Source: Isoptericola sp.
GTDB taxonomy: Bacteria; Actinomycetota; Actinomycetes; Actinomycetales; Cellulomonadaceae
Reading direction: 5' to 3'
Assembly (NCBI GenBank): GCA_031181105.1
Contig: JAPSLD010000003.1
Coordinates: 1-46,368 of the forward strand
Length of the DNA stretch: 46,368 nucleotides
Below are positions 18,803 to 45,133 of this stretch, one piece after another. Both the position numbers and the translations under genes were made by a program. The notes beneath the pieces were generated by a model. It saw only the letters and a program-made list of their open reading frames with translations. It searched no databases and was not told the origin of the DNA. Positions within the stretch are counted from its first letter, which is position 1. Each line of letters begins with the position of its first letter.

Positions 18803-18822
18803 GCGGGGACCCGCTCAGCGGG
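18795..18822. terminator. Perfect 12-bp hairpin shared by convergent lhgO and mfd, containing both stop codons
   Basis: CCCGCTGAGCGG-GGAC-CCGCTCAGCGGG; lhgO TGA 18800-18802 and mfd stop 18815-18817 both in the stem. Confidence 0.8.
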
Positions 18823-21800
18823 CGGCCGTGCCGACGCTCGCCGCGGCGCTCACCTCGCCCAGGATCACCGCGTCGACCAGGTCGCGGGCCCACGCGAGGA
18901 CCTGGGCGCCGCGCAGCGGTCGTCCGCCGATGCGCGCCGTCGTCGGGAAGGGCACGAGGATCGCCCGGATCGCCGGCTTGAGCACCGTCCCGGGGTAGAG
19001 CCGCCGGAGGCGCAGCTGCGCGGACTCGGGCAGGTCCACGGGCGCGAACCGCACGTGCTTGCCCTGCGCCGTGACGTCGGAGAGCCCGGCCCGGCGCGCG
19101 TGGTTGCGGAAGTCCGCCACCTCGAAGAGGGCGGACGCGACCTCGGGCAGCGTGCCGTAGCGGTCCTCGAGCTCGGCGCGCACCTCCGCGAGCGCGGCGG
19201 CGTCGTGCGCCGCGGCGATCTTCTTGTACGCCTCGAGCCGCAGCCGCTCGGTCGCGATGTACGACTCGGGCAGGTGGGCGTCGACCGGCAGCTCGATGGT
19301 GACGTCGGGGGCCTCCTCCTCCTTCTCGCCGCGGAAGGCCTGCACGGCCTCCCCGACCATCCGCACGTAGAGGTCGAAGCCGACGCCGGCGATGTGGCCC
19401 GACTGCTCGCCGCCGAGCAGGTTCCCCGCGCCGCGGATCTCGAGGTCCTTCATGGCGATCTGCATGCCGGCGCCGAGGTCGGTGTTGGCGGCCATGGTGG
19501 CGAGACGGTCGTGCGCGGTCTCGGTCAGCGGCCGCTCCGGCGGGTAGAGGAAGTAGGCGTAGGCGCGCTCGCGGCCACGGCCCACGCGGCCGCGGAGCTG
19601 GTGCAGCTGCGACAGGCCGAGCATGTCGGCGCGCTCGAGGATCAGGGTGTTGGCGTTCGAGATGTCCAGGCCGGTCTCGACGATCGTGGTGCACACCAGG
19701 ACGTCGAGCTCCTTCTCCCAGAAGCCGCGGATCACCTGGTCGAGCTGGGCCTCGTTCATCTTGCCGTGCGCGACGCCCACACGGGCCTCGGGCACCAGCT
19801 CGCGCAGCCGGGCGGCGGTCCGGTCGATCGTCTCGACCTTGTTGTGCACGTAGAACACCTGGCCCTCGCGCAGCAGCTCGCGCCGCAGGGCAGCGGTGAT
19901 CTGCTTCTCGTCGTACGCGCCGACGTAGGTCAGGACGGGGTGGCGCTCCTCGGGCGGCGTGGCGAGCGTCGACATCTCGCGGATGCCGGTGACCGCCATC
20001 TCGAGCGTGCGCGGGATCGGCGTGGCGGACATCGCCAGCACGTCGACGTTGGTCCGCAGCTGCTTGAGGGTCTCCTTGTGCTCGACGCCGAAGCGCTGCT
20101 CCTCGTCGACGATCACGAGCCCGAGGTCCTTGAACTGCACCGACCCGGTGATCAGCCGGTGCGTGCCGATGACGACGTCGACCGTGCCGTCCTTGAGCCC
20201 CGCGACGACCTCGGCCGCCTCCTTCTCGGACTGGAACCGGCTCAGCGCCTTGACCGTCACGGGGAAACCGGCGTACCGCTCGGAGAACGTGTCGAAGTGC
20301 TGCTGCACCAGCAGCGTCGTCGGCACGAGCACGGCGACCTGCTTGCCGTCCTGCACCGCCTTGAAGGCCGCGCGGATCGCGATCTCCGTCTTGCCGTAGC
20401 CCACGTCGCCGCACACGAGCCGGTCCATCGGGACCGGCTTCTCCATGTCGGCCTTGACCTCCTCGATGGTGGCGAGCTGGTCGGGCGTCTCGACGTACGC
20501 GAACGCGTCCTCGAGCTCGCGCTGCCACGGCGAGTCCGGGCTGAAGGCGTGCCCCTGGGTCGCCATGCGGGCGCTGTAGAGGCGGATGAGCTCCGAGGCG
20601 ATCTGCCGCACGTGCTTGCGGGCCTTCGCCTTGGTGTTCTTCCAGTCGGCCCCGCCCATCTTGTTCAGGCTCGGGGACTCGCCGCCGGTGTACTTGGTGA
20701 CCTGGTCGAGCTGGTCCATCGGCACGAACAGCCGGTCCCCCGGCTGCCCGCGCTTGGACGACGCGTACTCGATGACGAGGTACTCGCGCGTCGCGGCGTT
20801 GGCGCCCGCGCCGAGCGTGCGCTGCACCATCTCGACGAAGCGCCCGACCCCGTGCTGCTCGTGCACGACGAAGTCGCCGGCCTTGAGCTGCAGCGGGTCG
20901 ACGACGTTGCGCCGGCGCGACGGCATCTTGCGCATGTCGCGGGTCGTCGGGCCCTGCCGGCCGGTCAGGTCCGACTCGCTGAAGACGGCGAGCCGCAGCT
21001 CCGGCGCGACGAAGCCCTTGCCGACGAGGGCCGGTGCGACGAGCACGACGCCGCCGTCGGGCTCGTCCGCGAGCTCGCTCACGAGCCGCGCCGCCGTGTC
21101 GGCCGCCGAGAGCTGCTCGACCATCCGCTTGGCGGGGCCGGGACCCTCGGTCGTGAGCACGAGCCGCCAGCCCGCGCGCTGCAGCGACTTGACGTCGTCG
21201 AGCGCCCGCTGCAGGTCTCCTCGGTAGGACTCGACGTCGCGCGCGCCGACCGTGAGGGTGGTGGTGCCGTCGTCCGGCTCGGTGGCGGCCGCGCCGCCGA
21301 TCTCCTCGCCGGCCTCGCCCGACGTCGCCGCGTCGAGGCTGAAGGACGAGAGGGTCCACCAGCCCAGCCCCCGCCGCGCCGCGACCTCGCGCACCTCGGC
21401 GAACGTCGCGAAGCTGGCCGCGGACAGGTCGATCGGCGCCGCGCCGCCGGCCACCGCGCCCGTCCACGCCGCCGCGAGGAACTCCTCCGTCGTGGCCACG
21501 AGGTCGTGGGCCCGACGCCGGACGCGCTCGGGCTCGTCGAGAACGAGCAGCGCGTCCTCGGGCACGAGGTCCAGGACAGGCACCATGCGGTCGGCGAGGA
21601 CCGGCGCGAGCGACTCCATGCCCTCCACCGCGACGCCGGCGGCGAGCCGGTCGAGCATCTCGACCGCGCCGGGCAGCTGCTCGACGAGCGCGGCGGCCCG
21701 CTCGCGAACCTTCTCGGTGAGGAGGATCTCGCGGCACGGGGGCGCCCACAGGCCGTGCTGGGCGACCTCGAGCGACCGCTGGTCCGCGACGGCGAACCAG

Positions 21801-22438
21801 CGGACCTCGGAGACCTCGTCGCCCCAGAACTCGATGCGCAGCGGGTGGTCCTCGGTGGGCGGGAACACGTCGAGGATGCCGCCGCGCACGGCGAACTCGC
21901 CCCGCCGCTCGACCATGTCGACGCGCGAGTACGCCGCGGCGCTGAGGCGGTCCGCGACGTCGGTCAGGTCCGCCGTGCCGCCGGGGTGCAGCTCGACGGG
22001 CTCCAGCTCGCCCAGCCCGTCGACGACCGGCTGCAGCAGCGCCCGCACGGGCATGACGAGCACACGGATCGGGCCGGTCGGGCCGGGCTGGTCGCTCGGG
22101 TGGGCGAGGCGGCGGAACACGGCGAGCCGCTTGGCCACGGTGTCCGCGCGGGGCGAGAGCCGCTCGTGCGGCAGCGTCTCCCACGCGGGCAGCACCGCCA
22201 CGTCGTCGGACCGCTCGTCCGGCAGGTACGCGCGCACGCTCGCGGCGAGCTCGTCGGCGTCCCGCCCCGTGGCCGTCACCACGACGAGCGGGCGCCGCTC
22301 CGCCGCGGCGGCCAGCAGGGGCGGCCGCGCACCCCCGGGACCGACGACGTCGACGAACCCGCGCGCGGCGACGCGCTCGACGGCAGCGGCGGCGCCGGGG
22401 TCGGCGAGCAGGGCTGGGACGATGCCGGTGAGGTTCAT
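18815..22438 (-). CDS. mfd: Transcription-repair coupling factor
   Basis: 1207 aa; RecG-like helicase motifs GDVGYGKTEIAIRAAFKA, VPTTLL, DEEQRFGV, SATPIPRTLEMA, HQLRGRVGRG. Confidence 0.97.
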   Translation of the reverse strand: MNLTGIVPALLADPGAAAAVERVAARGFVDVVGPGGARPPLLAAAAERRPLVVVTATGRDADELAASVRAYLPDERSDDVAVLPAWETLPHERLSPRADTVAKRLAVFRRLAHPSDQPGPTGPIRVLVMPVRALLQPVVDGLGELEPVELHPGGTADLTDVADRLSAAAYSRVDMVERRGEFAVRGGILDVFPPTEDHPLRIEFWGDEVSEVRWFAVADQRSLEVAQHGLWAPPCREILLTEKVRERAAALVEQLPGAVEMLDRLAAGVAVEGMESLAPVLADRMVPVLDLVPEDALLVLDEPERVRRRAHDLVATTEEFLAAAWTGAVAGGAAPIDLSAASFATFAEVREVAARRGLGWWTLSSFSLDAATSGEAGEEIGGAAATEPDDGTTTLTVGARDVESYRGDLQRALDDVKSLQRAGWRLVLTTEGPGPAKRMVEQLSAADTAARLVSELADEPDGGVVLVAPALVGKGFVAPELRLAVFSESDLTGRQGPTTRDMRKMPSRRRNVVDPLQLKAGDFVVHEQHGVGRFVEMVQRTLGAGANAATREYLVIEYASSKRGQPGDRLFVPMDQLDQVTKYTGGESPSLNKMGGADWKNTKAKARKHVRQIASELIRLYSARMATQGHAFSPDSPWQRELEDAFAYVETPDQLATIEEVKADMEKPVPMDRLVCGDVGYGKTEIAIRAAFKAVQDGKQVAVLVPTTLLVQQHFDTFSERYAGFPVTVKALSRFQSEKEAAEVVAGLKDGTVDVVIGTHRLITGSVQFKDLGLVIVDEEQRFGVEHKETLKQLRTNVDVLAMSATPIPRTLEMAVTGIREMSTLATPPEERHPVLTYVGAYDEKQITAALRRELLREGQVFYVHNKVETIDRTAARLRELVPEARVGVAHGKMNEAQLDQVIRGFWEKELDVLVCTTIVETGLDISNANTLILERADMLGLSQLHQLRGRVGRGRERAYAYFLYPPERPLTETAHDRLATMAANTDLGAGMQIAMKDLEIRGAGNLLGGEQSGHIAGVGFDLYVRMVGEAVQAFRGEKEEEAPDVTIELPVDAHLPESYIATERLRLEAYKKIAAAHDAAALAEVRAELEDRYGTLPEVASALFEVADFRNHARRAGLSDVTAQGKHVRFAPVDLPESAQLRLRRLYPGTVLKPAIRAILVPFPTTARIGGRPLRGAQVLAWARDLVDAVILGEVSAAASVGTAAR

Positions 22439-22512: not shown

Positions 22513-23784
22513 CTACGACGGCGGACCGACGGTGCCGTTCCCGCTGCCGTTCCCGCTGCCGTTCCCGCTGCCGGTCCCGCTGCGCCGGGCCGTCGCGAGC
22601 CACGCCGCCTGGAGCAGGAGCTCGGCGGCGAAGGGCGGGGTCGGCGAGAGCCACGCGGCCCGCAGCGCCTCGGCGTCGACCAGGTCGTCGTCGAGACCCG
22701 AGCCGTCCCAGTCCCGCGCGAACGCACGTTCCCGGTCGCCCCAGCGGGTGGCGTTGAAGCGCGCCTTCGACGTGCGCGCGAGCACGTCGTCCGGCAGCAG
22801 GTCCCCGAAGAGGCGCCGGAAGACGTCGGTGCGGCCGGCGTAGCCCCACGCACCGCCCTCGGCCGCGAGCGCCCGCACGACGCGCGGCTCGGCGAACGGG
22901 TGCAGGTGGACGACGTCGTGCTCGCGGGCCACGACGTCGAGGTTGTGCATGACGACGGCGGTGGCCCGCGACCGCAGCAGGCGCTCGGTCGCACGGTCCC
23001 AGCGCAGCGGCATCCGCTGGTCGCGCGCGAACCGCGCGGCCGCCGCGTGCGCGACGTCGTCGGGCAGCCACGGCGGGAAGATCGGTCGGTACGCCGCCGC
23101 GGGCACGGTCCAGGCGGGCCGGAGCGCGCCGGGCAGCTCGCGGACGAGCCGGCGCGACGGCAGCCGCCCCGCGGCGAGCGCCCGGCGCAGGTGGTAGAGC
23201 GAGGTGCCGCGCCGCCGCGACAGCAGGTCGTCACCGCCCTCGCCGGTCACGACGACCCGGCCGCGCAGGTGCGACAGGCGCACCGTCGCCCACTGGACCG
23301 ACGCCGGGAACACGAGCCCGCGTCGCTGCAGGCCCGCCGTCGCGGCGTCGCCGAGCAGGCGCTGCTCGTCCGTGACCAGCAGCACCTCGTGCTCGTCGAC
23401 CCGCAGGTGCTCGAGCACGCGCTCCTGCCAGCGGGACTCGTCGCTCTCGACGTCCCCGGGGTACCGGACGGTGAACGGGACCGGGAGGGGAAGTCCCTCG
23501 CGCCGCGCGACGTGGACGGCCACGGCGAGCAGCGCGGAGGAGTCGCGGCCGCCCGAGAAGAGCACGGCCGCCGGTCCCGGGTCGAGCGCCTCGAGCAGGA
23601 CCTGCTCCAGCACGCGCCGGGTCAGCCCGGCCCGCGGACCGGCGAGCGGCGTCGCGGGGGGCGGGGGCGTCCGCCCGAAGATCCACCCGACCGCGAGCTC
23701 GAGGCCGTCGGGCCGGTGGTAGCCGGACGCGCCGACGGCCGGCGCCCCGAGGAGGCGCCGACCGCCGGGTGTCGTCTCGGGCAC
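22513..23784 (-). CDS. Asparagine synthetase-like protein (candidate lasso/RiPP macrolactam synthetase C), lacking an N-terminal glutaminase domain
   Basis: AVLFSGGRDSSALLAVAVH ATP-PPi motif, VVTGEGGDDLLSRRRG; GTG start 7 nt after precursor stop. Confidence 0.85.
   Translation of the reverse strand: MPETTPGGRRLLGAPAVGASGYHRPDGLELAVGWIFGRTPPPPATPLAGPRAGLTRRVLEQVLLEALDPGPAAVLFSGGRDSSALLAVAVHVARREGLPLPVPFTVRYPGDVESDESRWQERVLEHLRVDEHEVLLVTDEQRLLGDAATAGLQRRGLVFPASVQWATVRLSHLRGRVVVTGEGGDDLLSRRRGTSLYHLRRALAAGRLPSRRLVRELPGALRPAWTVPAAAYRPIFPPWLPDDVAHAAAARFARDQRMPLRWDRATERLLRSRATAVVMHNLDVVAREHDVVHLHPFAEPRVVRALAAEGGAWGYAGRTDVFRRLFGDLLPDDVLARTSKARFNATRWGDRERAFARDWDGSGLDDDLVDAEALRAAWLSPTPPFAAELLLQAAWLATARRSGTGSGNGSGNGSGNGTVGPPS
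22535..22582. repeat. 12-bp in-frame tandem repeat ccgttcccgctg (3 copies plus one variant)
   Basis: Encodes GSGNGSGNGSGNG at the extreme C-terminus of the cyclase-like protein. Confidence 0.9.
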
Positions 23785-23791
23785 GTCGTGC

Positions 23792-23971
23792 TCAGGAGAC
23801 GAAGCAGCCGGCCGGGGCGTTCTCCTTGTCCTGGCCGCTGAGGTCGGCCAGCCCGACCTCCTGGTTCGGCTGGTCGTTGTCCGCGCCATAGCCGTACTTG
23901 CACGCCTGGATCGGCAGGAGCGTCATTCCACGCACGGAGCCGACCACAGCGATGGTGGGTCGCCGGTACAT
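23792..23971 (-). CDS. Candidate lasso-class RiPP precursor peptide (59 aa), not in supplied ORF list
   Basis: MYRRPTIAVVGSVRGMTLLPIQACKYGYGADNDQPNQEVGLADLSGQDKENAPAGCFVS; SD GAGGAGGGG before ATG; leader YxxPxI-x3-G-x5-T with canonical spacing; immediately upstream of cyclase. Confidence 0.8.
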   Translation of the reverse strand: MYRRPTIAVVGSVRGMTLLPIQACKYGYGADNDQPNQEVGLADLSGQDKENAPAGCFVS

Positions 23972-24042
23972 GCGACCCCTCCTCTCATCGGTGCCGCCGG
24001 CGGTGCCGGCGTCCTCGCCCCCACAGCCGTGGGTGCCTCTTC

Positions 24043-24178: not shown

Positions 24179-26050
24179 GTGGCAGACGACACCGGGACGT
24201 TCGTCGATCCCCTCGACCTCGCCGTCCAGGCGCGCCGGCAGCGGCGTTCCGTGCGCCGCCTCGGCCGGCTCGTCGGGCGCAGCACCCGGCTCGTGTGGGC
24301 GTCGGGACGGGGCCTGTTCGTGGCGCTCGGCGTCCTGCAGGTCGCGACGGCGGCGACACTCGCCGGGCAGGTCCTCGCGGTCGAGGCCTTCCTGACGGCC
24401 GTCCTGGAGGTCGGCGCCGGCGACCCGGTCGGGCCGCTCGTCGGCCCGGTCGCCTGGCTCGCCTCGCTGCTCGCGGCGGCGGCGCTGCTCGGCAGCGTCC
24501 AGGGCTACCTCAGGCGCTTTCTCGGGGACGCGGTGGCGCGGCGCACGCAGCTCGAGATCCTCGACGTCGCGACGCGCGTGAGCCTGCGGGAGTTCGAGCA
24601 CCCGCGGTTCTACGACGCCGTGCAGCGGGTGCAGACGAGCGCGTCCACGCGCCCGATGCAGGTCACCCAGGCGCTCATGACGATCGCCGGCGCGGTCGCC
24701 GTGACGGTCGGCGTGGGTGCGACGCTCGCGGCGATCGACCCGCTCCTGCTCGGGCTGCTCGTGCTCGGCGGCCTGCCGCTGCTGCTGACCAACCGGCAGG
24801 AGAGCCGGCTGGAGTTCGAGTTCACCGTCGCGCAGACGTACCCGCTGCGCGAGCGCGGCTACCTGACCTACCTGCTCACCGGCCGCCCGGAGTCCAAGGA
24901 GGTCCGTGCGTTCGGCCTGGGCGGTCCGTTGCTGCGCCGCCTCGACGCGCTGTGGGGGCGCTACCGCCGCGACCTCGCCCGCCACCTGCGCCGGCGCGCC
25001 GGCCTGAGCCTGGTGGGCAACGCGCTGTCCGCGCTCGTGCTCGGCGCCACCTTCCTCGTCGTCGTGCTGCTGATCGCCCGCGGCCGCATGGGCGTGGCCG
25101 AGGCCGGCGCCGCCGTCGTCGCCATCCGCATGCTGCAGGGCCAGGTGCAGGGCCTGCTGGGTGCCGTGCAGGCGATCTTCGAGGCCGGCCTGTTCCTCGA
25201 CGACGTCGACGCGTTCCTGGCCATGGGCCCCACGGCCGACGACGCGGAGTCCGGGACCCCGGCCCCCGCGGCGTTCGACCGCATCGAGGCCAGGGGCGTG
25301 CGCTTCACCTACCCCGGGTCGGACGTCGAGGCGCTGCGCGGGGTCGACGTCGAGATCCGCAGGGGCGAGGTCGTCGCCCTCGTGGGCGAGAACGGCTCCG
25401 GCAAGACGACGCTCGCCAAGGTGCTGGCGGGCCTCTACGACCCCACCGGCGGAGAGGTCCGGTGGGACGGGACGCCCACGACGGCGCTCGACCGGTCGAG
25501 CGTGCGGTCGCGCGTCGCGGTGATCTTCCAGGACTACGTCCGCTACGCCTTCCCCGCGGACGAGAACGTCGCCGTGAGCGACATCGGCACGGCCCTCGAT
25601 GAGCACCGGGTCCGCAGGGCGGCGGCCGACGCCGGTGCCGACGAGTTCCTGGCGGCGCTCCCCCAGGGCTACGCGACCATGCTGTCCCGGCTCTTCCGCG
25701 GCGGGCAGGACCTGTCGGGCGGGCAGTGGCAGCGCGTCGCGATCGCCCGGGCGTTCTACCGGGACAGCCCGCTGGTGATCCTCGACGAGCCGACGGCCGC
25801 CCTGGACCCGCGCGCCGAGCACGACCTGTACACGTCGCTGCGCCGCGTCCTCGACGACCGCAGCGCGGTGTTCGTCTCGCACCGCTTCTCGTCCGTCCGC
25901 TCCGCCGACCGCATCTACGTGCTCGACGCCGGCCAGGTCGTCGAGCACGGCACGCACGACGAGCTCATGGCGGCCGGCGGCCTGTACGCCGAGCTCTTCA
26001 CGCTGCAGGCCGAGGCCTACCTCTCCCCCGTCCGCACGGACGGGGCCTGA
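24179..26050 (+). CDS. ABC transporter, fused permease and ATP-binding domains (candidate RiPP exporter)
   Basis: TM region then VALVGENGSGKTTLAKVLAGLYDPTGGEVRWDG, LSGGQWQRVAIARAFYRDSPLVILDEPTAALDP; GTG start with GGGAGGAG SD. Confidence 0.92.
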   Translation: MADDTGTFVDPLDLAVQARRQRRSVRRLGRLVGRSTRLVWASGRGLFVALGVLQVATAATLAGQVLAVEAFLTAVLEVGAGDPVGPLVGPVAWLASLLAAAALLGSVQGYLRRFLGDAVARRTQLEILDVATRVSLREFEHPRFYDAVQRVQTSASTRPMQVTQALMTIAGAVAVTVGVGATLAAIDPLLLGLLVLGGLPLLLTNRQESRLEFEFTVAQTYPLRERGYLTYLLTGRPESKEVRAFGLGGPLLRRLDALWGRYRRDLARHLRRRAGLSLVGNALSALVLGATFLVVVLLIARGRMGVAEAGAAVVAIRMLQGQVQGLLGAVQAIFEAGLFLDDVDAFLAMGPTADDAESGTPAPAAFDRIEARGVRFTYPGSDVEALRGVDVEIRRGEVVALVGENGSGKTTLAKVLAGLYDPTGGEVRWDGTPTTALDRSSVRSRVAVIFQDYVRYAFPADENVAVSDIGTALDEHRVRRAAADAGADEFLAALPQGYATMLSRLFRGGQDLSGGQWQRVAIARAFYRDSPLVILDEPTAALDPRAEHDLYTSLRRVLDDRSAVFVSHRFSSVRSADRIYVLDAGQVVEHGTHDELMAAGGLYAELFTLQAEAYLSPVRTDGA

Positions 26051-26066: not shown

Positions 26067-26744
26067 GTGCCGGGTGGGCAGGCAGGCGGCGGCGCCGCGC
26101 GGGCGCCCCGCCGGCGGGCCGTGCTGCTGCCCGTCGTGACGGCCGCCGCGTTCGGCCTCGTCTACGCGCTGGCCGTGCGCACCGGGGCGGGCCAGCGCTG
26201 GGACGCCGGGTCGTTCTCCGACGTCGTCGTGCTGCACGACGCCGCGGGTGGGTTCTTCCGGCTGCTGCGCGACTCGCTGCCGCTCCTCCTGGCGGTCGCG
26301 GTGGTGCCGGCGGGCGTCGCCGTGGCGGCGCGCGCCTGGCGGCGCCTGGCCGCGGCGGCCGTCGTGCTGGCCGTGTCGGCCACCGGGGCGCGGGTGCTGC
26401 GGGACCACGTGCTGACCCGGCCGGACCTCGGTGACAACGGGTACCCCCAGAACAGCTTCCCGAGCGGGCACGTGGCCGTCGCCGCGGCCCTGTGCGTCGC
26501 CTTCGTGCTGCTGTGGCCCGGCGGGGCCGGGCGGGCGGTCGTGGCCTCGTGGGGCACCGTCGCGGCGCTCTCCGCCGTCGCCAACGTCGTCACGTTCGCG
26601 CACCGTCCCGCCGACGTCGTCGGCTCGCTCCTGCTCGTCGGCACGGTGGCCGCGGCGACCGTTCAGGCGCTGCGCCCGGACGCCACCCCGGCGGTCGCCG
26701 TGCCGTGGCGGTCCCGCGGCCGGCCGTCGGACGAGCCGCGGTAG
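26067..26744 (+). CDS. PAP2-superfamily phosphatase (membrane)
   Basis: Multi-TM with NSFPSGHVAVAAAL and TFAHRPADVVGSLL. Confidence 0.8.
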   Translation: MPGGQAGGGAARAPRRRAVLLPVVTAAAFGLVYALAVRTGAGQRWDAGSFSDVVVLHDAAGGFFRLLRDSLPLLLAVAVVPAGVAVAARAWRRLAAAAVVLAVSATGARVLRDHVLTRPDLGDNGYPQNSFPSGHVAVAAALCVAFVLLWPGGAGRAVVASWGTVAALSAVANVVTFAHRPADVVGSLLLVGTVAAATVQALRPDATPAVAVPWRSRGRPSDEPR

Positions 26745-27766
26745 AGCTCCTCGTACCGGTCGACGACGCGCCCGAGGGAGAACTCCTGGGCCCGCACGAG
26801 GCCTGCCCCCGCGAGCGCCGCGCGCCGGTCCGCGTCGTCGAGCAGGTCGGCGAGGGTACGGCCCACCTGGCCCAGCGTGGTCAGCGCGCCCGCGCGGCCC
26901 TCGTCGGTCACGTACCGGGCGCCGACGTTGGGCGTGGCGACGACCGGGAGGCCGCTGGCCATGGCCTCGACGTACGGGATGCCGAAGCCCTCGTAGTCGG
27001 ACGGCAGGCAGAACGCCCAGGCGCGGCGGTACGCGTCGGCCAGGGCCGCGTCGTCCAGGGCGCCCAGCGACCGGACGCCCGGGCCGGGCTCGGCCGGGAC
27101 GTCCCGCGCGACCATCCACAGCCCGGCGCCGGGGTGCCGCGGCAGCACGTCCCGGGCGAACTGGCGGGCGAGCTCCGCGCCGTTCTTGCGGCCGCCCCAC
27201 GTGCCGACGAACAGCACCACGGGGTGGTCGGCACGCCGGGCCGGGTCGGGGCGGAACCGCCCGAGGTCGACGCCGTTGGGCACGACGTCGCGCACCCAGG
27301 GGTACCAGCGCCGGGTCGCGGGCGAGACGACCACGGTGCGGTCGGCCACGACGCTCGCGAGCACCTCGGAGAGCCCCAGCAGCACCATGCGGGCGCGCTC
27401 CTTGGCGCCCCGGATCCGCCGCGCCTCCTCGAAGCACGAGCCGTGCAGCGTGCGGACGTGGCGCGGCGCGCGCCGCCGCCAGAGCCAGTAGTCGTCGCCG
27501 TGGGCGTGGATCACGTCGTAGCCGGACAGGTCCGTCCGGCGCAGCGTCGTCGCGAACCGGAACGTCCGCAGGGACCCGTCGAGCACGACGTGCCGGTGCC
27601 CGTAGGCGGCGCCCGCCACCGGCGGGCACTCGCTGAGCACGTCGACGTGGTGCCCCCGCCGCACGAGCTCGGTCGCGAGCTCGTGCACCTGGTACCCGAT
27701 CCCCTGCTTGCTCGCGCTGGGCAGGTAGTACGAGATCATCGCGACGCGCAGCGGCCGGCCGGTCAC
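26663..27766 (-). CDS. Glycosyltransferase family 4/GT1-like
   Basis: VAMISYYLPSASKQGIGYQVHELATELVRRGHHVDVLS..., VPNGVDLGRF, PSDYEGFGIPYVEAMASGLPVVAT. Confidence 0.92.
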   Translation of the reverse strand: MTGRPLRVAMISYYLPSASKQGIGYQVHELATELVRRGHHVDVLSECPPVAGAAYGHRHVVLDGSLRTFRFATTLRRTDLSGYDVIHAHGDDYWLWRRRAPRHVRTLHGSCFEEARRIRGAKERARMVLLGLSEVLASVVADRTVVVSPATRRWYPWVRDVVPNGVDLGRFRPDPARRADHPVVLFVGTWGGRKNGAELARQFARDVLPRHPGAGLWMVARDVPAEPGPGVRSLGALDDAALADAYRRAWAFCLPSDYEGFGIPYVEAMASGLPVVATPNVGARYVTDEGRAGALTTLGQVGRTLADLLDDADRRAALAGAGLVRAQEFSLGRVVDRYEELYRGSSDGRPRDRHGTATAGVASGRSA

Positions 27767-28860
27767 GGGGCGCTCGCCAGCCCGCCGCGCAGGGCCTCGA
27801 GCCAGCCGCGGCCGAACCGCAGGTCCGGCTCGAGGTGGTTGCCCTCCGCCCACTCGTTCCACGACTTGACCCACAGCAGTCGCTCCTCGGCGGGCCGGTG
27901 CGCGACCGACGCGACCGCCTGGCGGACGTTGGCCCGGAACTTGTCCGGCGTGGCGCCGTGCAGGACGACGCCGCGGCGGCCCGACCGCGGGGTGTTGTCC
28001 CAGTTGGGGTACACGCACGGCTGCACCAGGTCGCCGGTGCGGTTCTGCCCGGCCCAGTCGGTCGTGTACGGGTAGATCTCGGGCCCGCCGGCGAGCTTGC
28101 GGACGGCCCGCATGCGCAGCACGTCGAGCCGTGACGTCCCGGCCGGCATGCGCATGTAGACGCCGGCGTCGAAGCCGTCCTCCTTGACGCGGTCGTACCG
28201 CACGCCGCCTCCCACGAGGTCGCTCATCTCGGCGACGAGGTAGAGCCCCTCGAGGCCCGCGCGCCGCGCGAGCGACTGCCACAGGTCGACGAACCGGCCG
28301 GCGTCGGGCAGCTCCTCGGGGCGGAAGACGTAGAAGACGGGGCGGCCGCCGACCCGCAGGTAGCGCGGGTCGCGGAGGGCGGGGAGGACCGCCTCGAAGT
28401 GGGCGACGTGGTCGTCGTCGCCCGGGTAGTCCTGCCGCACGAGGACGCGGTCCGGGTCGCCGTGCCAGATGCCGCTCCACGTCTGGTTCGCCCAGGCGAG
28501 GCAGAACGGCAGGTCCGGCTCCCCCGAGGACAGCACCTCGCGGAACGGCCGGTCCAGGAGGCGCCGGCCGTTGCCGAACCAGTAGTGCCAGTACGCGAAG
28601 GCCTCGACGCCGTACGCACGGGCGAGCTCGGCCTGCGCGGCCCGGGCCTCCGGCAGGCGCAGGTCGTAGAACCCGAGGTCCGCGGGCACGACCGGCTGCG
28701 CGTGGCCCGGGTAGAGCCGGCGCGCACGCGCGACGTTCGTCCACTCGGTGAAGCCCGGGCCCCACCACTCGTCGTTCTCGGGGACCGGGTGGAACTGGGG
28801 CAGGTAGAAGGCAACCGCGCGCGCCGACGTCGTCGGGCCCATGGTCGGGTTCGTCGTCAC
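27763..28860 (-). CDS. WbsX-like (GH99-like domain) glycan biosynthesis protein
   Basis: AVAFYLPQFHPVPENDEWWGPGFTEWTNVARARRLYPGHAQP..., YWHYWFGNGRRLLDRPF, KSWNEWAEGNHLEPDLRFG. Confidence 0.9.
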   Translation of the reverse strand: MTTNPTMGPTTSARAVAFYLPQFHPVPENDEWWGPGFTEWTNVARARRLYPGHAQPVVPADLGFYDLRLPEARAAQAELARAYGVEAFAYWHYWFGNGRRLLDRPFREVLSSGEPDLPFCLAWANQTWSGIWHGDPDRVLVRQDYPGDDDHVAHFEAVLPALRDPRYLRVGGRPVFYVFRPEELPDAGRFVDLWQSLARRAGLEGLYLVAEMSDLVGGGVRYDRVKEDGFDAGVYMRMPAGTSRLDVLRMRAVRKLAGGPEIYPYTTDWAGQNRTGDLVQPCVYPNWDNTPRSGRRGVVLHGATPDKFRANVRQAVASVAHRPAEERLLWVKSWNEWAEGNHLEPDLRFGRGWLEALRGGLASAP

Positions 28861-28906
28861 CCGGTCACCGTCCTCGTCCGTGCCGTGCGGCCGGTCCTGC
28901 ACTGCG

Positions 28907-28981
28907 ACGATACGGGCGGCGGCACGCGTGGTCCGAGGTCCGGGGGGTGGATTCACCCGGCTCCGGCGTGATCTCACCCGA
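28907..28981 (-). promoter_or_regulatory. Cluster element site B: TTCACCCGG (28952) and CTCACCCG (28973) upstream of wbsX-like gene
   Basis: Minus-strand -10 TATCGT (28912-28907) 40 nt from proximal repeat; repeats 21 nt apart. Confidence 0.7.
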
Positions 28982-29013
28982 GCGCCGACGGCCCCGGGGC
29001 CGGCTGCTCGCGC

Positions 29014-30231
29014 TCACGGCTTCGGCGCCGCCTGCACCACGGCGAGGTACGCGTCGCGGGCGCCGGTGTCCGGGACGTCGAGGTGGAGCGGGTTCGCCTC
29101 CTCGGTGGTGCCTGCCGGCCCCCCGCGACGCCGCAGACCGTCCCGCCACGTCGCGGCGAGGCTGCGCGCGGTGGTCGACCGGGCGTTCTGGTACACGATG
29201 CGTGCCGTGCGGCGGTCGCCCGGCGTCCACGGGAGCGGCACGACGTGGTCGACCGCCGCCGCGACCGCCCGCCACGTGGCGCAGCGCCGGCGCGGCCGCG
29301 TCGCCTCGGCGGGCAGCGGGAACACGCGCGCCGCACGGTCCAGGGCGAGCCGCAGCGGCAGCTCGACACCGTAGGCACGGGCTCGCGCGCGCACGAGGGC
29401 CCAGTCCGCCTGGTCCGCGGACGCCGACGCCATGTCCATGAGCCACAGCAGCCGGTACCCCCCGGACAGCGTCGTGTGATAGCCGAGGTGCAGGAGGGTG
29501 TCGACGGGGTCGAGCACCGGCGCCTCGGTGCTGCCGACCTCCAGCGGGACCGCTCTGGCGAGCAGCTCCTCGGTCGGGAACGTGAGCTCCCGGCGCAGCG
29601 GCGCGGCGTTCACGAGGTCCCAGTGCAGGTCGAGCCCCGTGCCGAACGGGAGCCGGACCGTCAGCTCCGCGCGGACCTGGTCCCGCACCAGCGGCCAGTT
29701 CCGGTCCACCAGGCACGCCCCCGCGCCGACGAGCGCGTCGAGCGCCGTGGCGAACCGCCGCCGCTCCACCAGCAGGTCGAGGTCGTAGTACTCGCGCATG
29801 TCCGGCCTCGGCCACCGCTGCGCGACGGCCGCGCCCTTCAGGAGCGCCCAGCCGACCCCGGCGGCGGTCAGCGCCGCACCCGCCGCGCGGAGGTCCGCCA
29901 GGGAGCGCAGCTGGCGCATCTTCTGCTGGACGTACGCCGCCTCCAGCGGTCCGAGCAGCCCGACGTCGTCGGTGACGGGCGCGAGCGCGAGGAAGACGGC
30001 CGGGCCGACCCGGTGCCAGGCCGCGGCCTCGTGAAGGGCGTCCGGGGCGACGGCGCGCAGGTGGGCGGCGGAGATCTCCGCACCGGTCAGGGACCGGACG
30101 AGCACCTCCGCGACGGCCCCGCGCCGCGCCCCGCGCCCTGCCGCGAGCCGTGCCGTCAGCGGTGCCGTGCCCGCGCCGTCCGCCCGTGCGGTCCCTGCCG
30201 GCCGCGGGTCCTCGGCCGCGTCGATGAGCAC
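29014..30231 (-). CDS. Nucleotidyltransferase family protein (NTP_transf_5-like) of RiPP/HPr-rel-type locus
   Basis: GVGWALLKGAAVAQRWPRPDMREYYDLDLLVERRRFATALDAL...GLDLHWDLVN; downstream of HprK-like gene. Confidence 0.8.
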   Translation of the reverse strand: MLIDAAEDPRPAGTARADGAGTAPLTARLAAGRGARRGAVAEVLVRSLTGAEISAAHLRAVAPDALHEAAAWHRVGPAVFLALAPVTDDVGLLGPLEAAYVQQKMRQLRSLADLRAAGAALTAAGVGWALLKGAAVAQRWPRPDMREYYDLDLLVERRRFATALDALVGAGACLVDRNWPLVRDQVRAELTVRLPFGTGLDLHWDLVNAAPLRRELTFPTEELLARAVPLEVGSTEAPVLDPVDTLLHLGYHTTLSGGYRLLWLMDMASASADQADWALVRARARAYGVELPLRLALDRAARVFPLPAEATRPRRRCATWRAVAAAVDHVVPLPWTPGDRRTARIVYQNARSTTARSLAATWRDGLRRRGGPAGTTEEANPLHLDVPDTGARDAYLAVVQAAPKP

Positions 30232-30239
30232 CCCGCCCC

Positions 30240-31208
30240 CTAGGCCACGGCCTGGCCGAGCGGCGGTACCGCCGCGCGGACCGCCGCGAGGAGCTCGGCA
30301 CCCAGCGTCGGGCCGAACGGCGGCCCCCACGGGACGCGCGCGGCGACGACCGGGACGCGACGGCTGAGCTCGGACAGGCCCTCGAACGTCGCGCGCACCA
30401 CTCCCGGGTGGGTCCACCCCTCGAGGCGCGGGACCGCCAGCAGCGTCAGCAAGGCGTCGCGCCGCGACAGCACGTCGACCTCGAGGGGCCGGCCGCTCCG
30501 GTCCGGCCAGGGCACGACGACCGCCGCGAGGGGACGGTCGCCCGCGGCGGCGTCCCGCAGGCGCAGGACCTGGCGTCCGTCGACGCTGACCCGCCGGTCC
30601 GGGCGTGCGCCGTCGAACCGCTCGAGCAGCGTGTCGGCGCCCTTGCGCAGCCGGAGCTCGGTCGCGCCCAGGACGGCGCGCGCGGAGCCGTCGTCGGGCA
30701 GCGTGACCGTGAGCAGGTCGTCCGTGACCAGCGCGGCGCCGGCGGCGCAGGTGAGCGCCGCCGTCGTGGACTTGCCCCGCCCGGACGCGCCCGTGAACGC
30801 GACGGCGACGCCGTCGTGCTCGACGGCGCTCGCGTGCAGCACGAGCCTGCCGCGCAGGGTGAGGACGAAGGCGCACAGGGCCCCGACCGTCAGCACCGTC
30901 GCGAGACCGGGGTCGGCGCCGGGCGCCTGGTGCACGGTGACCCGCGCGAGGTCCGCCGAGACTGCGAAGTCGCACACGTCGGCGAACCGGAGCCGCCAGC
31001 CGCCGTCCGAGCGGGCGTGGGCCACGTACCGCGCGCCGCCGCGCTCGAACTCGAGCACGGGCTCGCCGGCCGGCTCCGGGCAGCGGGCCCCGTCCGGCGC
31101 CGTGCGGACCACCAGGTCCGCGACGGCCCCCGGCGGTGCCGGGCGGTCCTGGTGCAGGTCGAGGTCCGAGTCGACGACCATGCCGTAGAGCAGGTAGCGG
31201 TACGTCAT
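30240..31208 (-). CDS. HPr kinase-like P-loop protein (HprK-related kinase)
   Basis: VLHASAVEHDGVAVAFTGASGRGKSTTAALTCAAGAALVTDDLLTV; ATGA overlap with B2 gene. Confidence 0.85.
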   Translation of the reverse strand: MTYRYLLYGMVVDSDLDLHQDRPAPPGAVADLVVRTAPDGARCPEPAGEPVLEFERGGARYVAHARSDGGWRLRFADVCDFAVSADLARVTVHQAPGADPGLATVLTVGALCAFVLTLRGRLVLHASAVEHDGVAVAFTGASGRGKSTTAALTCAAGAALVTDDLLTVTLPDDGSARAVLGATELRLRKGADTLLERFDGARPDRRVSVDGRQVLRLRDAAAGDRPLAAVVVPWPDRSGRPLEVDVLSRRDALLTLLAVPRLEGWTHPGVVRATFEGLSELSRRVPVVAARVPWGPPFGPTLGAELLAAVRAAVPPLGQAVA

Positions 31209-31675
31209 GCGGCCGCCCTCGACGCGGGGACGAGCGGCGTGTACGCCCGCGAGCTCATCGGGTCGAGGTCGACGCCGTCGACCACGACCCAGGCGTGGGC
31301 GCGGAGCTCGCCGTCCTCGCGGCGCACGCCGACGAGCAGCCGGGGCCGGCGCGCGCGCAGCACCCAGCCCAGGACGAGCGCCCGGCGCAGGCAGGTGTCC
31401 GGGAACGGGCCGCGGGCGAGCACCGCCAGGCCGGCGCGCACCCGGCGCCGGGTGCGCGGCGACAGCGCCAGCTGCCCGGACCGCGCCTGCGCCCCGGGCC
31501 CGAGCCCCGCGGGATCCAGGACGAGCCCGCACAGGCGCGCCAGGGTCGGCAGGCGAAGGACGCGCAGACCCACCTCGACGCCCGTGACGACCGCGGCGGC
31601 CTCGAGCAGCCACGGCGCGGCGCGGACCAGCCGTGCGGTGCGCCGCAGGGCGGCGGCCGGGCGTCCGGACGGCAT
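31205..31675 (-). CDS. Lasso peptide biosynthesis B2 protein (transglutaminase-like leader peptidase)
   Basis: GPFPDTCLRRALVLGWVLRARRPRLLVGVRREDGELRAHAWVVVDGVDLD with Cys-His-Asp triad; SD GGAGG before ATG. Confidence 0.88.
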   Translation of the reverse strand: MPSGRPAAALRRTARLVRAAPWLLEAAAVVTGVEVGLRVLRLPTLARLCGLVLDPAGLGPGAQARSGQLALSPRTRRRVRAGLAVLARGPFPDTCLRRALVLGWVLRARRPRLLVGVRREDGELRAHAWVVVDGVDLDPMSSRAYTPLVPASRAAA

Positions 31676-31718
31676 GGGGACCTCCATCGCGTCGCGCCGG
31701 GCGAGGCCCGACCTCCCG

Positions 31719-31830
31719 AGTCTGTGCACGCCGCCCGGGCCGCTCCAACGGGGCCGGGGTGTTTTCACCCCGCACAGCCGTGACCGGCACCCAAGTTCAC
31801 CCCCGCGTGCCCGGCGGCGGCGCCTACGCT
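31719..31830. promoter_or_regulatory. Cluster element site C: TTCACCC pair (31764, 31796) between divergent B2 and PqqD genes
   Basis: 32-nt spacing; minus-strand -10 CAGACT (31724-31719) 40 nt from proximal repeat; plus-strand -10 TACGCT 31825-31830. Confidence 0.7.
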
Positions 31831-31836
31831 CGCGGA

Positions 31837-32088
31837 ATGAGGCTGCGCACGGACGGCATCGCCTGGCAGGAGCTCGACGGCGAGCTCGTCGTGCTCGACC
31901 TGCAGGCCTCGACCTACCTCGAGGCGAACGCCACGGGCACGTTCCTGGCCGGGCTCCTGAAGGAGGAGCGGACGCTCGAGGAGCTGCGCGACGCGCTCGT
32001 CGAGAGGTACGGCATCGCCCCGGACGTCGCCGAGCAGGACGCGCGCGCGTACGTCGACGAGCTGCGCGGGCTCGGGCTGCTCGCCTGA
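31837..32088 (+). CDS. PqqD-family peptide-binding (RRE/B1-like) protein
   Basis: IAWQELDGELVVLDLQASTYLEANATGTFLAGLLKEERTLEELRDALVERYGIAPDVAEQDARAYVDELRGLGLLA. Confidence 0.88.
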   Translation: MRLRTDGIAWQELDGELVVLDLQASTYLEANATGTFLAGLLKEERTLEELRDALVERYGIAPDVAEQDARAYVDELRGLGLLA

Positions 32089-32117
32089 CCCGGCGGCGGG
32101 ACGCGGGAGGAGGCGCG

Positions 32118-33029
32118 ATGACGAGGCTCGGTGCGTACGTGCTCCCCGGCGACCTGGTGTGGCTCGCCGGCACCCTGCCGGCCTACTACCCGTACCTGGA
32201 CGAGCTCGTGGTCCCGTTCCCGACGGACGGGCTGGGGTGGAGCGGGCAGCGCGTGCCCGCCGCCGCCTGCCTCGCGGCCGTCCGGCGCGCCGACGTCCGG
32301 GGGATCCTGCGGGTGGTGCGCGGCACGTGGCGCGACGTCGACGACCCGCTGCGGGGCGAGACGGCCCAGCGCCAGGCGGCGCTCGACGCGTTCTCCCCCG
32401 ACGTCGAGTGGGTCCTGCAGCTCGACGGCGACGAGCTGCTCCCGCGCCCCGACGCGCTGCTGGACGCCCTCGCGCTCGCCGACGAGCGTGGCTGCCGGGC
32501 GGTCGAGTGGCCCATGCGGGTGCTCTTCCGCCGCACGCGGCGCGGCTTCCTCGAGGTCACGACCGCGGCGGGCACGCCCGCCTACGAGTACCCCGGTCCC
32601 GTCGCGGTCCGCCGCGGGACGACGCTCGCGTCCGCGCGGCGCGTCGACGGACCACGGCTGCGCGTGCTCGTCGCGGGCGACACGACGTCGCCCGCGGTCC
32701 TCCGGGCGCCCGAGCCCGGCGAGGTGCGGGTGGCGGCCGCCGACCCCGCCGACGCGATCGTGCACAACTCCTGGGCCCGGAGCCTGGCGCAGGTCCGCGC
32801 CAAGGTCCGCGGCTGGGGCCACGCGCGCGACGTGTCCGCCGCGCGCTACGTGTGGCTCGTGTGGTGGCCCGCCCCCGTGACGTGGCGGCTGCTGCGCGAC
32901 CTGCACCCGCTCTTCGGCGCCGTGTGGCCGCGGCTGCGGCCCGTCGCCGCCGCCACGCTCCTCCCGCGTCCGGCAGGAGGTACCGCAGCGGGGACCGCTG
33001 CCGGTGCGACGGCGGTGAGCCGTGCCTGA
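32118..33029 (+). CDS. Glycosyltransferase-like protein
   Basis: WVLQLDGDELLPRPDALLDAL...AVEWPMRVLFRRTRRGF; SD GGGAGGAGG. Confidence 0.7.
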   Translation: MTRLGAYVLPGDLVWLAGTLPAYYPYLDELVVPFPTDGLGWSGQRVPAAACLAAVRRADVRGILRVVRGTWRDVDDPLRGETAQRQAALDAFSPDVEWVLQLDGDELLPRPDALLDALALADERGCRAVEWPMRVLFRRTRRGFLEVTTAAGTPAYEYPGPVAVRRGTTLASARRVDGPRLRVLVAGDTTSPAVLRAPEPGEVRVAAADPADAIVHNSWARSLAQVRAKVRGWGHARDVSAARYVWLVWWPAPVTWRLLRDLHPLFGAVWPRLRPVAAATLLPRPAGGTAAGTAAGATAVSRA

Positions 33030-34050
33030 GCCGCGACACCTCGTGGTGGTGCTCAGCTGGCACGGCCGGCGCGACACGGTGCGCTGCGTCGAGTCGATCC
33101 GCACCGGCTCGCCGGGTGTCGACGCCCTGGTGGTCGACAACGGGTCGCACGACGGCGTCCTGGACGAGGTCGCCGCGCGCTGGCCCGGCGTCGCGACGCT
33201 GCAGACCGGCGACAACCTCGGGTTCGCCGGCGGCATGAACCGCGGCGTCGCGTGGGCGGCGCGGCACGGCTACGAGGTCGTGACCGTGCTGAACAACGAC
33301 ACGGTGGTCGACCCCGGGGCGCTGGACCGGCTCGCGGCGCTCGCCGGGCCCGGCGTCGCGGTGGGCCCGCGCATCGTGCGCCTCGTCGACGGTCCGGACG
33401 GCGACGCCCCCCTGTGGTTCGCCGGCGGGGTGCTCGACGCCCTCGACGGCCTGCCGCGGCACCTCGCGGAGCCCGAGGCGCGGGGCCGGCTCGCGGCCGC
33501 GCGACCGTTCGGGACGGACCTGCTCACCGGCTGCTGCGTGTGCGCGACGACGGCGACGTGGCGCCGGGCGGGCCTGTTCGACGCCCGCTTCTTCCTCGAC
33601 TTCGAGGACTCCGACTGGAGCCTGCGCGCCCGCGGCCGCGGCGTGCACCTGCTCGTCGACCCGGGCGCCGTCGTGCGCCACCGCGTCTCGGCGTCCTTCA
33701 CCGGTGCGGCGTCGTACCTCGGCACGTTCTACTACGTGCGCAACGCGCTGCTGTTCGCCCGCCGCTGGCGCCGGGCCGGCGTGCGTCCGGTGCGCCTCCT
33801 GCGCCACCGCCTGCTGCCGCTGCCGGTGCGCACCTGGCGCGACGGCGGCCCGCGCGAGGCCGTACGCGCGGCCGTCGTCGTGGGCGCGGCGATCCTCGCC
33901 CACGCGCTGGGGCTCTACGGCCGCGCGCCGCGCGCGCTCGAGGCGCTCGCCGCGCGCTGGTCGCCGCCCGCCGCCGACCGGGTGGAAAACGCCCCGGACC
34001 GGGGTGAAAAGGCCCTCGACCCCCGCAGCGCCGAGGCCGCGCGGGGTTAG
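33022..34050 (+). CDS. Glycosyltransferase family 2 (rhamnosyltransferase-like)
   Basis: LVVVLSWHGRRDTVRCVESI...VDNGSHDG...GFAGGMNRGVAWAARHGYEVVTVLNNDTVVDPGAL. Confidence 0.9.
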   Translation: MPEPRHLVVVLSWHGRRDTVRCVESIRTGSPGVDALVVDNGSHDGVLDEVAARWPGVATLQTGDNLGFAGGMNRGVAWAARHGYEVVTVLNNDTVVDPGALDRLAALAGPGVAVGPRIVRLVDGPDGDAPLWFAGGVLDALDGLPRHLAEPEARGRLAAARPFGTDLLTGCCVCATTATWRRAGLFDARFFLDFEDSDWSLRARGRGVHLLVDPGAVVRHRVSASFTGAASYLGTFYYVRNALLFARRWRRAGVRPVRLLRHRLLPLPVRTWRDGGPREAVRAAVVVGAAILAHALGLYGRAPRALEALAARWSPPAADRVENAPDRGEKALDPRSAEAARG

Positions 34051-34053
34051 CGT
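33980..34053 (+). promoter_or_regulatory. Cluster element site D: GGGTG(G)AAAA pair upstream of Wzt-like gene
   Basis: GGGTGGAAAA (33980) and GGGTGAAAA (34002), 21-22 nt apart around CCCCGGACCGGGG; -10 TAGCGT (34048-34053) 40 nt from proximal repeat. Confidence 0.65.
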
Positions 34054-34088
34054 GGCCGCACGCCGACCCGCCGGAGCGAGGACCCCGC

Positions 34089-35291
<1,203 letters not shown>

Positions 35292-35293
35292 GC

Positions 35294-36133
35294 ATGCGGC
35301 GCGAACCGGGCGGCCAGCCCTACGTCGTCCTCCTCCCGCCGGGGCGGCTCAACCTGCCCCGGGGGCGCGAGATCTGGGAGGCGCGCGAGATCCTGTACCG
35401 CTTCGGCGTGCGCGACGTCGTGCTGCGCTACCGGCAGACCGCCGTGGGCATCGCGTGGGTCGTGCTCCAGCCGCTCGTCACGGCGGCGATCTTCGCGATC
35501 GTCTTCGGCCGCGTGGCGGGCCTGTCCTCGGGCGACGTGCCGTACTTCCTGTTCGCGTTCGCCGGCACGATCGCCTGGACGGTGTTCTCGGGCGTGCTGA
35601 CCCGCGCCGCACCGTCGCTCGTGGCCAACCAGGCGCTCGTGTCCAAGGTGTTCTTCCCGCGGGTCGTCGTGCCGCTGTCGGCGAACCTCTCGGTGCTGAT
35701 CGACTTCGCGGTCTCGCTCGCGCTCTTCGCGGTGCTCCTCGCGGTCAACGACGTCAACCCCGGGTGGGCGGTGCTCACGCTGCCGCTGTGGACGCTGTGC
35801 GCCCTCGCCCTGGGCTCGGGTGCCGGGCTCGCGGCGTCGGCCGTCATGGTCAAGTACCGGGACGTCTCGTACGCGCTGCCCTGGCTGGTCCAGGTGCTGA
35901 TGTACGCGACGCCGGTCGCCTACGCCCTCGACGCCGTGCCGCCCGGCCTGACCTGGTGGTTCGACGCCAACCCCCTCACCTGGCTGATGGAGTGCTTCCG
36001 GTGGGCCCTGCTCGGCTCGGCCCCGCCGCCCGCGTGGCAGGTGGTCGGGCTCGTGGTGGCCTCGGTGGTGGCGGTGCTGGCGGGCCTGCTGGTCTTCCAG
36101 CGCCGCGAGCGCGAGTTCGCGGACGTGATCTGA
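35294..36133 (+). CDS. Polysaccharide ABC exporter permease (Wzm-like)
   Basis: REILYRFGVRDVVLRYRQTAVGIAWVVLQPLVTAAIFAIVFGRVA...KVFFPRVVVPLS. Confidence 0.95.
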   Translation: MRREPGGQPYVVLLPPGRLNLPRGREIWEAREILYRFGVRDVVLRYRQTAVGIAWVVLQPLVTAAIFAIVFGRVAGLSSGDVPYFLFAFAGTIAWTVFSGVLTRAAPSLVANQALVSKVFFPRVVVPLSANLSVLIDFAVSLALFAVLLAVNDVNPGWAVLTLPLWTLCALALGSGAGLAASAVMVKYRDVSYALPWLVQVLMYATPVAYALDAVPPGLTWWFDANPLTWLMECFRWALLGSAPPPAWQVVGLVVASVVAVLAGLLVFQRREREFADVI

Positions 36134-37077
36134 TGGGCGCGTCGTCGGGGGCTCCGCCCCGCGTCACGGTGGTCATGTCGACCAACCGCGTCTCGCCCTA
36201 CCTCGCCGAGGCGCTCGCGTCGGTCGTCGCCCAGACCTACACGGACTGGCACGTGCTGCTCATGGACAACGGGTCCCCCGACGCGGACCGGCTCGCCGAG
36301 ATTGCCGCGGGCGTCCCCGGCTGCGAGCTCGTGCGCGAGAAGGGCCACGTCGTGTCGATCCCGCTGAACCACGGGGCGGCGCTGGCCCGGGGCGAGTACG
36401 TGACCTTCCTCGACGACGACGACGTCTGGCTGCCCGACCGTCTCCAGGTCCTGGTCGACGCGCTCGACGCCGACCCCGCGGCCGGGGCCGTGTACTCGTC
36501 GGTCGACGTCATCGACTCCGACGGGCGGCGCCGCGGCCCGCTGTTCGTCGCCGACGGCGAGACGGCGCGGGACCTCCTGGCGGGCCGGTACCCGTTCCCC
36601 AACGTCGTGTCCGTGCTCTACCGGCGCACCGAGCTGCTGCGCGTCGGCGGGTTCAACCCCGCCTTCCGGTACGCCGAGGACACCGACCTGACCTTCCGGA
36701 TGCTCCAGTACTCGACGATGATCGGCGTCCCGCAGGTGCTCACGCTCTACCGGCGCCACGAGCAGAACGTGACCAAGGTGGAGCCCAGCGTCGTGCACGA
36801 CGCCGCGCGGCGCATGATCCGCATGCAGCTCTGGGGCGCCGAGAACCACCCGGACCCCCGCGTCCTCGGCGACGTCCGGGCGAACCTCGCCGCGCTCGAC
36901 GCCCAGGACGCCACCGACTCCGTCGGCGAGGGCTTCGCGCGGCTGCGCGAGGGCAGCCCCGTGGGAGCGGCGCAGATGCTCGTCCGCGCGGCCCGGCTCG
37001 ACCCGCGGGCGGCGGCGCGCGAGGCCTGGCGGCGCGGCCGCCACCGGCTCGCCGCGCGGTCCGGGCTGCGGCGGTGA
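36133..37077 (+). CDS. Glycosyltransferase family 2
   Basis: VTVVMSTNRVSPYLAEALASVVAQTYTDWHVLLMDNGSPD...VTFLDDDDVWLPDRLQVLV. Confidence 0.92.
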   Translation: MGASSGAPPRVTVVMSTNRVSPYLAEALASVVAQTYTDWHVLLMDNGSPDADRLAEIAAGVPGCELVREKGHVVSIPLNHGAALARGEYVTFLDDDDVWLPDRLQVLVDALDADPAAGAVYSSVDVIDSDGRRRGPLFVADGETARDLLAGRYPFPNVVSVLYRRTELLRVGGFNPAFRYAEDTDLTFRMLQYSTMIGVPQVLTLYRRHEQNVTKVEPSVVHDAARRMIRMQLWGAENHPDPRVLGDVRANLAALDAQDATDSVGEGFARLREGSPVGAAQMLVRAARLDPRAAAREAWRRGRHRLAARSGLRR

Positions 37078-37104
37078 GGGAACCGGCACCGGTCCTCCTT
37101 AACT

Positions 37105-44964: not shown

Positions 44965-45010
44965 GCGTTCCTCCCGGCGCCGGGCGGGCGGGACGCCCGC
45001 GGGCACTGCC

Positions 45011-45133
45011 AGTCTGTGATCGGCCGCGCGCGCCGCGGAAGGCGGATCGCGCCAGTTCACCCGGCTCACGGGGGCCCGGACGGCGATTTCATCCGCTCGG
45101 CCGGTGCCGGGTCTCGCCGGGCGTCCCTAGCGT
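45011..45133. promoter_or_regulatory. Cluster element site E: TTCACCCGG (45056) and TTCATCCG (45088) between divergent aminotransferase and epimerase genes
   Basis: 32-nt spacing; minus-strand -10 CAGACT (45016-45011) 40 nt from proximal repeat; plus-strand -10 TAGCGT 45128-45133. Confidence 0.7.

Follow-up and report, generated by a model that had tools for sequence, protein, structure and literature searches.

Known lasso peptides are 13 to 33 residues long (PMC13352647), and their natural rings comprise 7 to 9 residues (PMC13352647; PMC8498205). The fusilassin enzymes tolerate engineered rings of 7 to 10 residues, with one-residue changes usually lowering production (PMC13352647); no natural lasso ring of more than 9 residues was found in the literature searched, the sole larger ones being fusilassin rings engineered to a size of at most 10. 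Rules for genome mining and programs that predict lasso cores presuppose 7 to 9 residues in the ring. Paeninodin and pseudomycoidin, the phosphorylated lasso peptides, are encoded with an HprK-like kinase, a nucleotidyltransferase, split B1 and B2 proteins and a precursor ending in Ser (PMC8498205), the residue on which kinases of this HprK-like type act (PMC8498205). Lasso clusters with a kinase, a nucleotidyltransferase and an MsbA-like transporter among polysaccharide genes are known in Bacillota (PMC13381572; PMC8498205).

The cluster described here lies in a 46,368-nucleotide stretch of an Isoptericola genome (the window) and shares these features with the paeninodin and pseudomycoidin systems, from which it differs in being actinobacterial, in having a cyclase without an N-terminal domain and in a precursor with no acid at core positions 7 to 9, a putative ring acceptor at position 13 and two Cys. 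A pairing of one ring-region Cys with one tail Cys is also found in class III lasso peptides (BI-32169 type), but their ring is standard, whereas the core in the window is far longer and its disulfide is putative. Clusters for linear polyphosphorylated peptides (LPP) of Bacillota resemble the locus in their RRE, HprK-like kinase, NTP transferase, MsbA-like transporter and polysaccharide surroundings (PMC13381572); their precursors carry the motif YxxPxVLxHQxIxFETxxS and are accompanied by a signal-peptidase-like enzyme and no cyclase, whereas the window encodes a lasso-type leader end, a B2 and a cyclase, and the LPP motif is absent. Canonical lasso clusters with short cyclases in the same and related genera (e.g., L092 and L094, with TL|AQGWNGNDDKFLWFAWGTDSRVS) have the same leader, B1, B2, kinase and ABC exporter, and a homologous cyclase about 48 to 52% identical to that of the window. 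Their cores have a D8 or D9 acceptor, 23 to 24 aa and no Cys, whereas the window core has D13, 41 aa and two Cys. In gene content the cluster is of lasso type, but its core has no acid where the usual count would place the defining ring acceptor.

The precursor gene, A, occupies positions 23792 to 23971 on the minus strand (59 aa; ATG at 23971, stop at 23794-23792), its leader (M1-L18) being encoded by 23971-23918 and its predicted core (L19-S59) by 23917-23795. It is preceded by the Shine-Dalgarno sequence GAGGAGGGG (23976-23985, minus strand), kept in two Isoptericola relatives; AGGAGGGG, four bases 5' of the ATG, makes a strong ribosome-binding site. A 59-codon ORF with a strong Shine-Dalgarno sequence directly upstream of an Asn-synthetase-like gene is exactly what had been described from the sequence beforehand. 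The proposed match to lasso leaders also holds: the leader fits Y-x2-P-x-I-x3-G-x5-T, and the six reading frames of the window contain the pattern Y-x2-P-x-[LIV]-x3-G-x5-T a single time, compared to 0.035 occurrences expected from second-order Markov shuffles.

Three others among the 222 genomes of the family encode full-length homologues of gene A with the frame kept: an Isoptericola MAG (97% identity), Isoptericola halalbus CFH 91151 (73%) and Cellulosimicrobium arenosum KCTC 49039 (56%). Each homologue sits directly upstream of the same cyclase, and dN/dS relative to the window is about 0.22, 0.37 and 0.48, respectively. Because homologues at 97, 73 and 56% identity retain the frame with dN/dS of about 0.22 to 0.48, the ORF is a real coding gene, not a chance frame. 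The original prediction was to be given up if no conserved ORF stood upstream of related cyclases or if the frame was not kept; the ORF is conserved there, in frame. The window precursor alone has no match in Pfam or NCBIfam. The homologue in C. arenosum reaches 15.8 bits, short of the NCBIfam lasso-leader cut-off of 19, which sibling precursors pass; two canonical precursors beside related cyclases pass the curated cut-off of NCBIfam lasso_leader_L3, and the window leader is closely homologous to the leaders of canonical precursors beside such cyclases. Searches for more distant precursors in the order and class returned chance or leader-only matches and nothing else, and none was found in the plasmid collection. 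In these data, the D13 type is known from three distinct species only.

Directly behind gene A lies the cyclase gene, C (22513-23784, minus strand; about 423 aa), as is characteristic of lasso clusters. Its GTG start at 23784 falls about 7 nt past the gene A stop, and the nearest relative has an ATG in the same place. The protein contains an asparagine-synthase domain only (PF00733, E=1.2e-18), with no N-terminal glutaminase-like domain, and matches NF033535 weakly (17.7 of 525 bits, short of the cut-off), over profile positions 262 to 378 of 668. Related cyclases with near-complete frames are all about 380 to 440 aa, and the missing N-terminal domain is therefore a property of the whole group. 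The AlphaFold2 model of cyclase C is confident and single-domain (pLDDT 91.2, pTM 0.88).

The remaining genes comprise an MsbA-like ABC exporter, D (24179-26050, plus strand), an NTP_transf_5 nucleotidyltransferase as in paeninodin-like clusters (29014-30231, minus strand; PF14907, E=1.9e-35), a predicted HprK-like kinase (30240-31208, minus strand; Walker A GASGRGKST), the leader peptidase B2 (31205-31675, minus strand; NF033537, lasso_biosyn_B2, 53.8 bits with a curated cut-off of 33) and a PqqD-like leader-binding protein, B1 (31837-32088, plus strand; PF05402, E=7.5e-15; 39 bits against NF033530, under its cut-off of 70). The kinase matches TIGR04352 and TIGR04355 weakly, below cut-off, and its homologues are syntenic; together with the C-terminal Ser of the precursor, it resembles the paeninodin type. 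I. halalbus shares the gene set in synteny, and C. arenosum and the canonical lasso clusters of the family share it in rearranged order; gene content and synteny agree with canonical clusters of other Isoptericola species. The whole cluster lies inside a polysaccharide locus. By these comparisons, the lasso-type cluster is complete, with the 59-codon ORF as its gene A beside C, B2, B1, kinase, nucleotidyltransferase and ABC exporter. Its product is almost certainly a lasso-type precursor, and the class originally assigned to it is borne out by leader and neighbors alike.

Which residue, then, could close the ring? Counted from Thr-Leu, the window core has 41 aa with K, Y and G at positions 7 to 9; its first acids are D13 and D15, and positions 6 and 38 are Cys, just as first described. 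Cores of the D13 family begin LPIQACKYGYGADN..., EPIQACKLGFGSDN... and GYPQNCKYGHGADN... and run to 41 to 43 aa. None of the four homologues has an acid at positions 7 to 9 under this count, and an Asp or Glu falls there only if the core start is shifted four residues later; the missing acceptor noticed in a single peptide is a conserved property of the clade. Invariant core residues include Q4, C6, K7, G9, G11, D13, N14, G22-L-A-D25, S27, G28, K31 and the terminal Ser. No acid is invariant in the precursor family apart from D13 and D25, and C6, K7, G9, G11, D13 and N14 form a single conserved block. Each homologue has exactly two Cys, one in the ring region at position 6 and one in the tail. 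On the minus strand, the codons concerned are those of the proposed acceptor D13 (Asp31, 23879-23881; invariant in four of four), C6 (Cys24, 23900-23902), C38 (Cys56, 23804-23806) and the C-terminal Ser59 (23795-23797), a proposed kinase target in view of the specificity of such kinases (PMC8498205).

Searching with the cyclase in the family, class and order yielded about 49 related cyclases, and beside them precursors were matched by their leader in 63 occurrences, some of them redundant. An acid stands at core 7 to 9 in 51 of these 63, mostly as D9, and the precursors without one cluster on the cyclase tree, in the window clade (D13) and in genus g38 and L046 (D10/D11). The D13-clade cyclases are monophyletic (support 1.0) and retain 49 of the 50 columns that do not vary among the remaining 47 cyclases, the SGGRDSS ATP motif among them. 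An E187D replacement, numbered on the window cyclase, follows the GEGGD motif; it is fixed in this clade, and none of the 47 others has it. In a neighboring clade of eight cyclases (support 0.92), all seven known precursors have G1 and D10 after the Thr-Leu leader end, with variation in the acids at 7 or 8; these precursors, at L036, L038, L077, L079, L080, L082 and L074 (second precursor), are predicted to form natural 10-residue lasso rings. Acceptor class requires 4 changes on the cyclase tree compared to a mean of 13.4 with shuffled labels; precursor and cyclase are co-inherited, so this contrast shows stability, not causation. The L069 core QFKTFGAADG and the g38 core RNKKFGTRSDG are in register from Thr-Leu at K3, F5 and G6 while the Asp moves from 9 to 10, suggestive of a true ring expansion in g38. 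In that genus (L100-L104), leader-bearing precursors, mostly paired in tandem, conserve an acid at core position 10 or 11 (motif SDG), and one of the two tandem types mostly has CxC tails. On predicted cores, the D13 of the window appears as the extreme of a series of related cyclase clades with acceptors at 9, 10, 11 and 13, not as an isolated oddity. Given the D10 clade, acceptors past position 9 would not be unique to the window, and an expanded ring size becomes plausible.

The best explanation, to which we assign a probability of roughly 0.43, is a phosphorylation-type lasso cluster whose product would carry a macrolactam between its N terminus and D13, a disulfide between C6 and the tail Cys and a phosphorylated C-terminal Ser. 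By analogy with known systems, B1 would bind the YxxPxI leader, and B2 would cut after Thr-Leu, releasing a core roughly 41 residues long. The short cyclase C would then adenylate an Asp side chain at the expense of ATP and join it to the new N terminus, and D13, which is probably the acceptor, would give a 13-residue macrolactam. Cys6 and the single tail Cys could form a disulfide that secures the tail inside or against the larger ring, perhaps threaded. The HprK-like kinase would phosphorylate the C-terminal Ser; this phosphate may in turn be decorated by the nucleotidyltransferase, and D would export the product. With a ring of 13 residues in a core of 41, the product would fall beyond the known lasso range. 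We tentatively suggest a natural lasso-type 13-residue macrolactam with a ring-tail disulfide, formed by a cyclase clade without the N-terminal domain and standing beside a clade with 10-residue rings. The earlier expectation of either a larger macrocycle or a second cleavage survives in its first half, with D13 as the leading position.

The ring of 13 residues depends on where the core starts. The 99% complete genome of C. arenosum encodes just one B2, yet it contains two A-C pairs: the first is of the D13 type, the second of a D10/E7 type with GWDTWREYQDE. Both precursors have near-identical leader ends, GLTL|G. The one B2 probably cuts both at the same place, which favors cleavage after Thr-Leu and hence a 13-residue ring. 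D25, however, is invariant too, and ACKYGYGAD would make a plausible ring of the standard 9 residues from A5 to D13, with a leader effectively four residues longer. B2 would then cut after the invariant Gln (LPIQ, EPIQ, GYPQ), or another peptidase would trim four residues before cyclization. Neither this displacement nor the acceptor series 9, 10, 11 and 13 was seen in the original prediction. The invariance of core Gln4 fits such a shift, as do the likeness of ACKYGYGADN to ALNGFGSSDN of a canonical precursor and the one-residue insertion of genus g38 between TL and an otherwise conserved GKQFG..SDGDF. When a profile of 21 canonical cores is slid over the core, the four-residue offset scores best in two of three members, but the test is weak (P = 0.46, 0.014 and 0.63) and not significant overall. 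A shifted cut would also disregard Thr at -2, the known B2 recognition residue (PMC10368454), and the sole C. arenosum B2 presumably also handles a normal TL|G leader. We regard a ring starting right after Thr-Leu as slightly short of an even bet and the A5-D13 ring as doubtful. For the cyclized, disulfide-bonded product, the calculated neutral monoisotopic mass with a 13-residue ring or with a 9-residue ring lacking the first four residues is 4261.93 or 3810.65 for the window, 4567.96 or 4100.72 for I. halalbus and 4132.84 or 3687.65 for C. arenosum, and phosphorylation would add 79.97 to each.

It is unlikely that the product has no N-terminal macrolactam at all and is instead a linear peptide of the LPP kind, phosphorylated or glycosylated, or one cross-linked otherwise (e.g., Lys7 or Lys31 to Asp13 or Asp25). 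Lys7, Lys31 and Asp25 are indeed invariant, and LPP clusters too have at their core a kinase, an NTP transferase and an MsbA-like transporter within a polysaccharide locus (PMC13381572), but these clusters typically lack a cyclase and have a signal-peptidase-like enzyme, whereas B2 is present here and a cyclase with all conserved motifs stands directly behind the precursor in every homologue. The second cleavage once proposed, before GLADLSGQD, fares worse and is very improbable. GLADxSG is conserved, and the cut would free 20 residues, a normal lasso length, as a short lasso closed from G1 to D9 (calculated neutral monoisotopic mass of the cyclized window form, 1959.90 Da). Yet conservation is lacking for protein D48, its would-be acceptor: the segment in C. 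arenosum, GLADGSGDW, has its acid at 8 instead of 9. Moreover, no leader-like peptidase signal precedes the site, and the conserved block before it would be left without a role. Hardly credible is a decaying, non-functional precursor, suggested by its departure from canonical cores, by one of the four D13-type genomes being a MAG and by the window assembly being 74% complete; three species keep frame, motifs and purifying selection (dN/dS 0.22-0.48), and the neighbors are intact.

If the 13-residue ring is real, ring size would be set by the cyclase clade, well past the 7-to-9 rule; if cleavage is shifted instead, the Thr(-2) rule is broken, and core prediction changes under either outcome. 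A conserved natural clade whose sole nearby acceptor is at 13, beside the G1/D10 clade, makes the maximum lasso ring size directly testable in named strains. The D10 clade is the most useful by-product of the analysis.

At L053, L054, L056, L057 and L060-L063, two distinct D9 precursors precede one cyclase, which apparently serves both cores. L015, a leader-bearing ORF without an acid at 7 to 9, was set aside, as its 19-kb stretch contains no cyclase. Its match at L090 (G522:C23:237631), a leader-bearing minus-strand ORF with the core SRCNPSLSGPPPKDSPDVPHHIDQHGECSANGDNGGFS, lies near a UvrD-like helicase gene; it has two Cys, no acid at 7 to 9 and no cyclase nearby, a lasso cluster being about 59 kb off in the same genome. 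From 26067 to 45069 of the window, lasso genes are interleaved with polysaccharide genes (by eye, WbsX-type and other glycosyltransferases, a Wzt-like ABC ATPase and WcaK-like proteins), as they are in I. halalbus and another Isoptericola (L094). The transcription-repair gene mfd repeatedly adjoins the lasso cluster, in the window (18815-22438) as well as at L071, L074 and L095.
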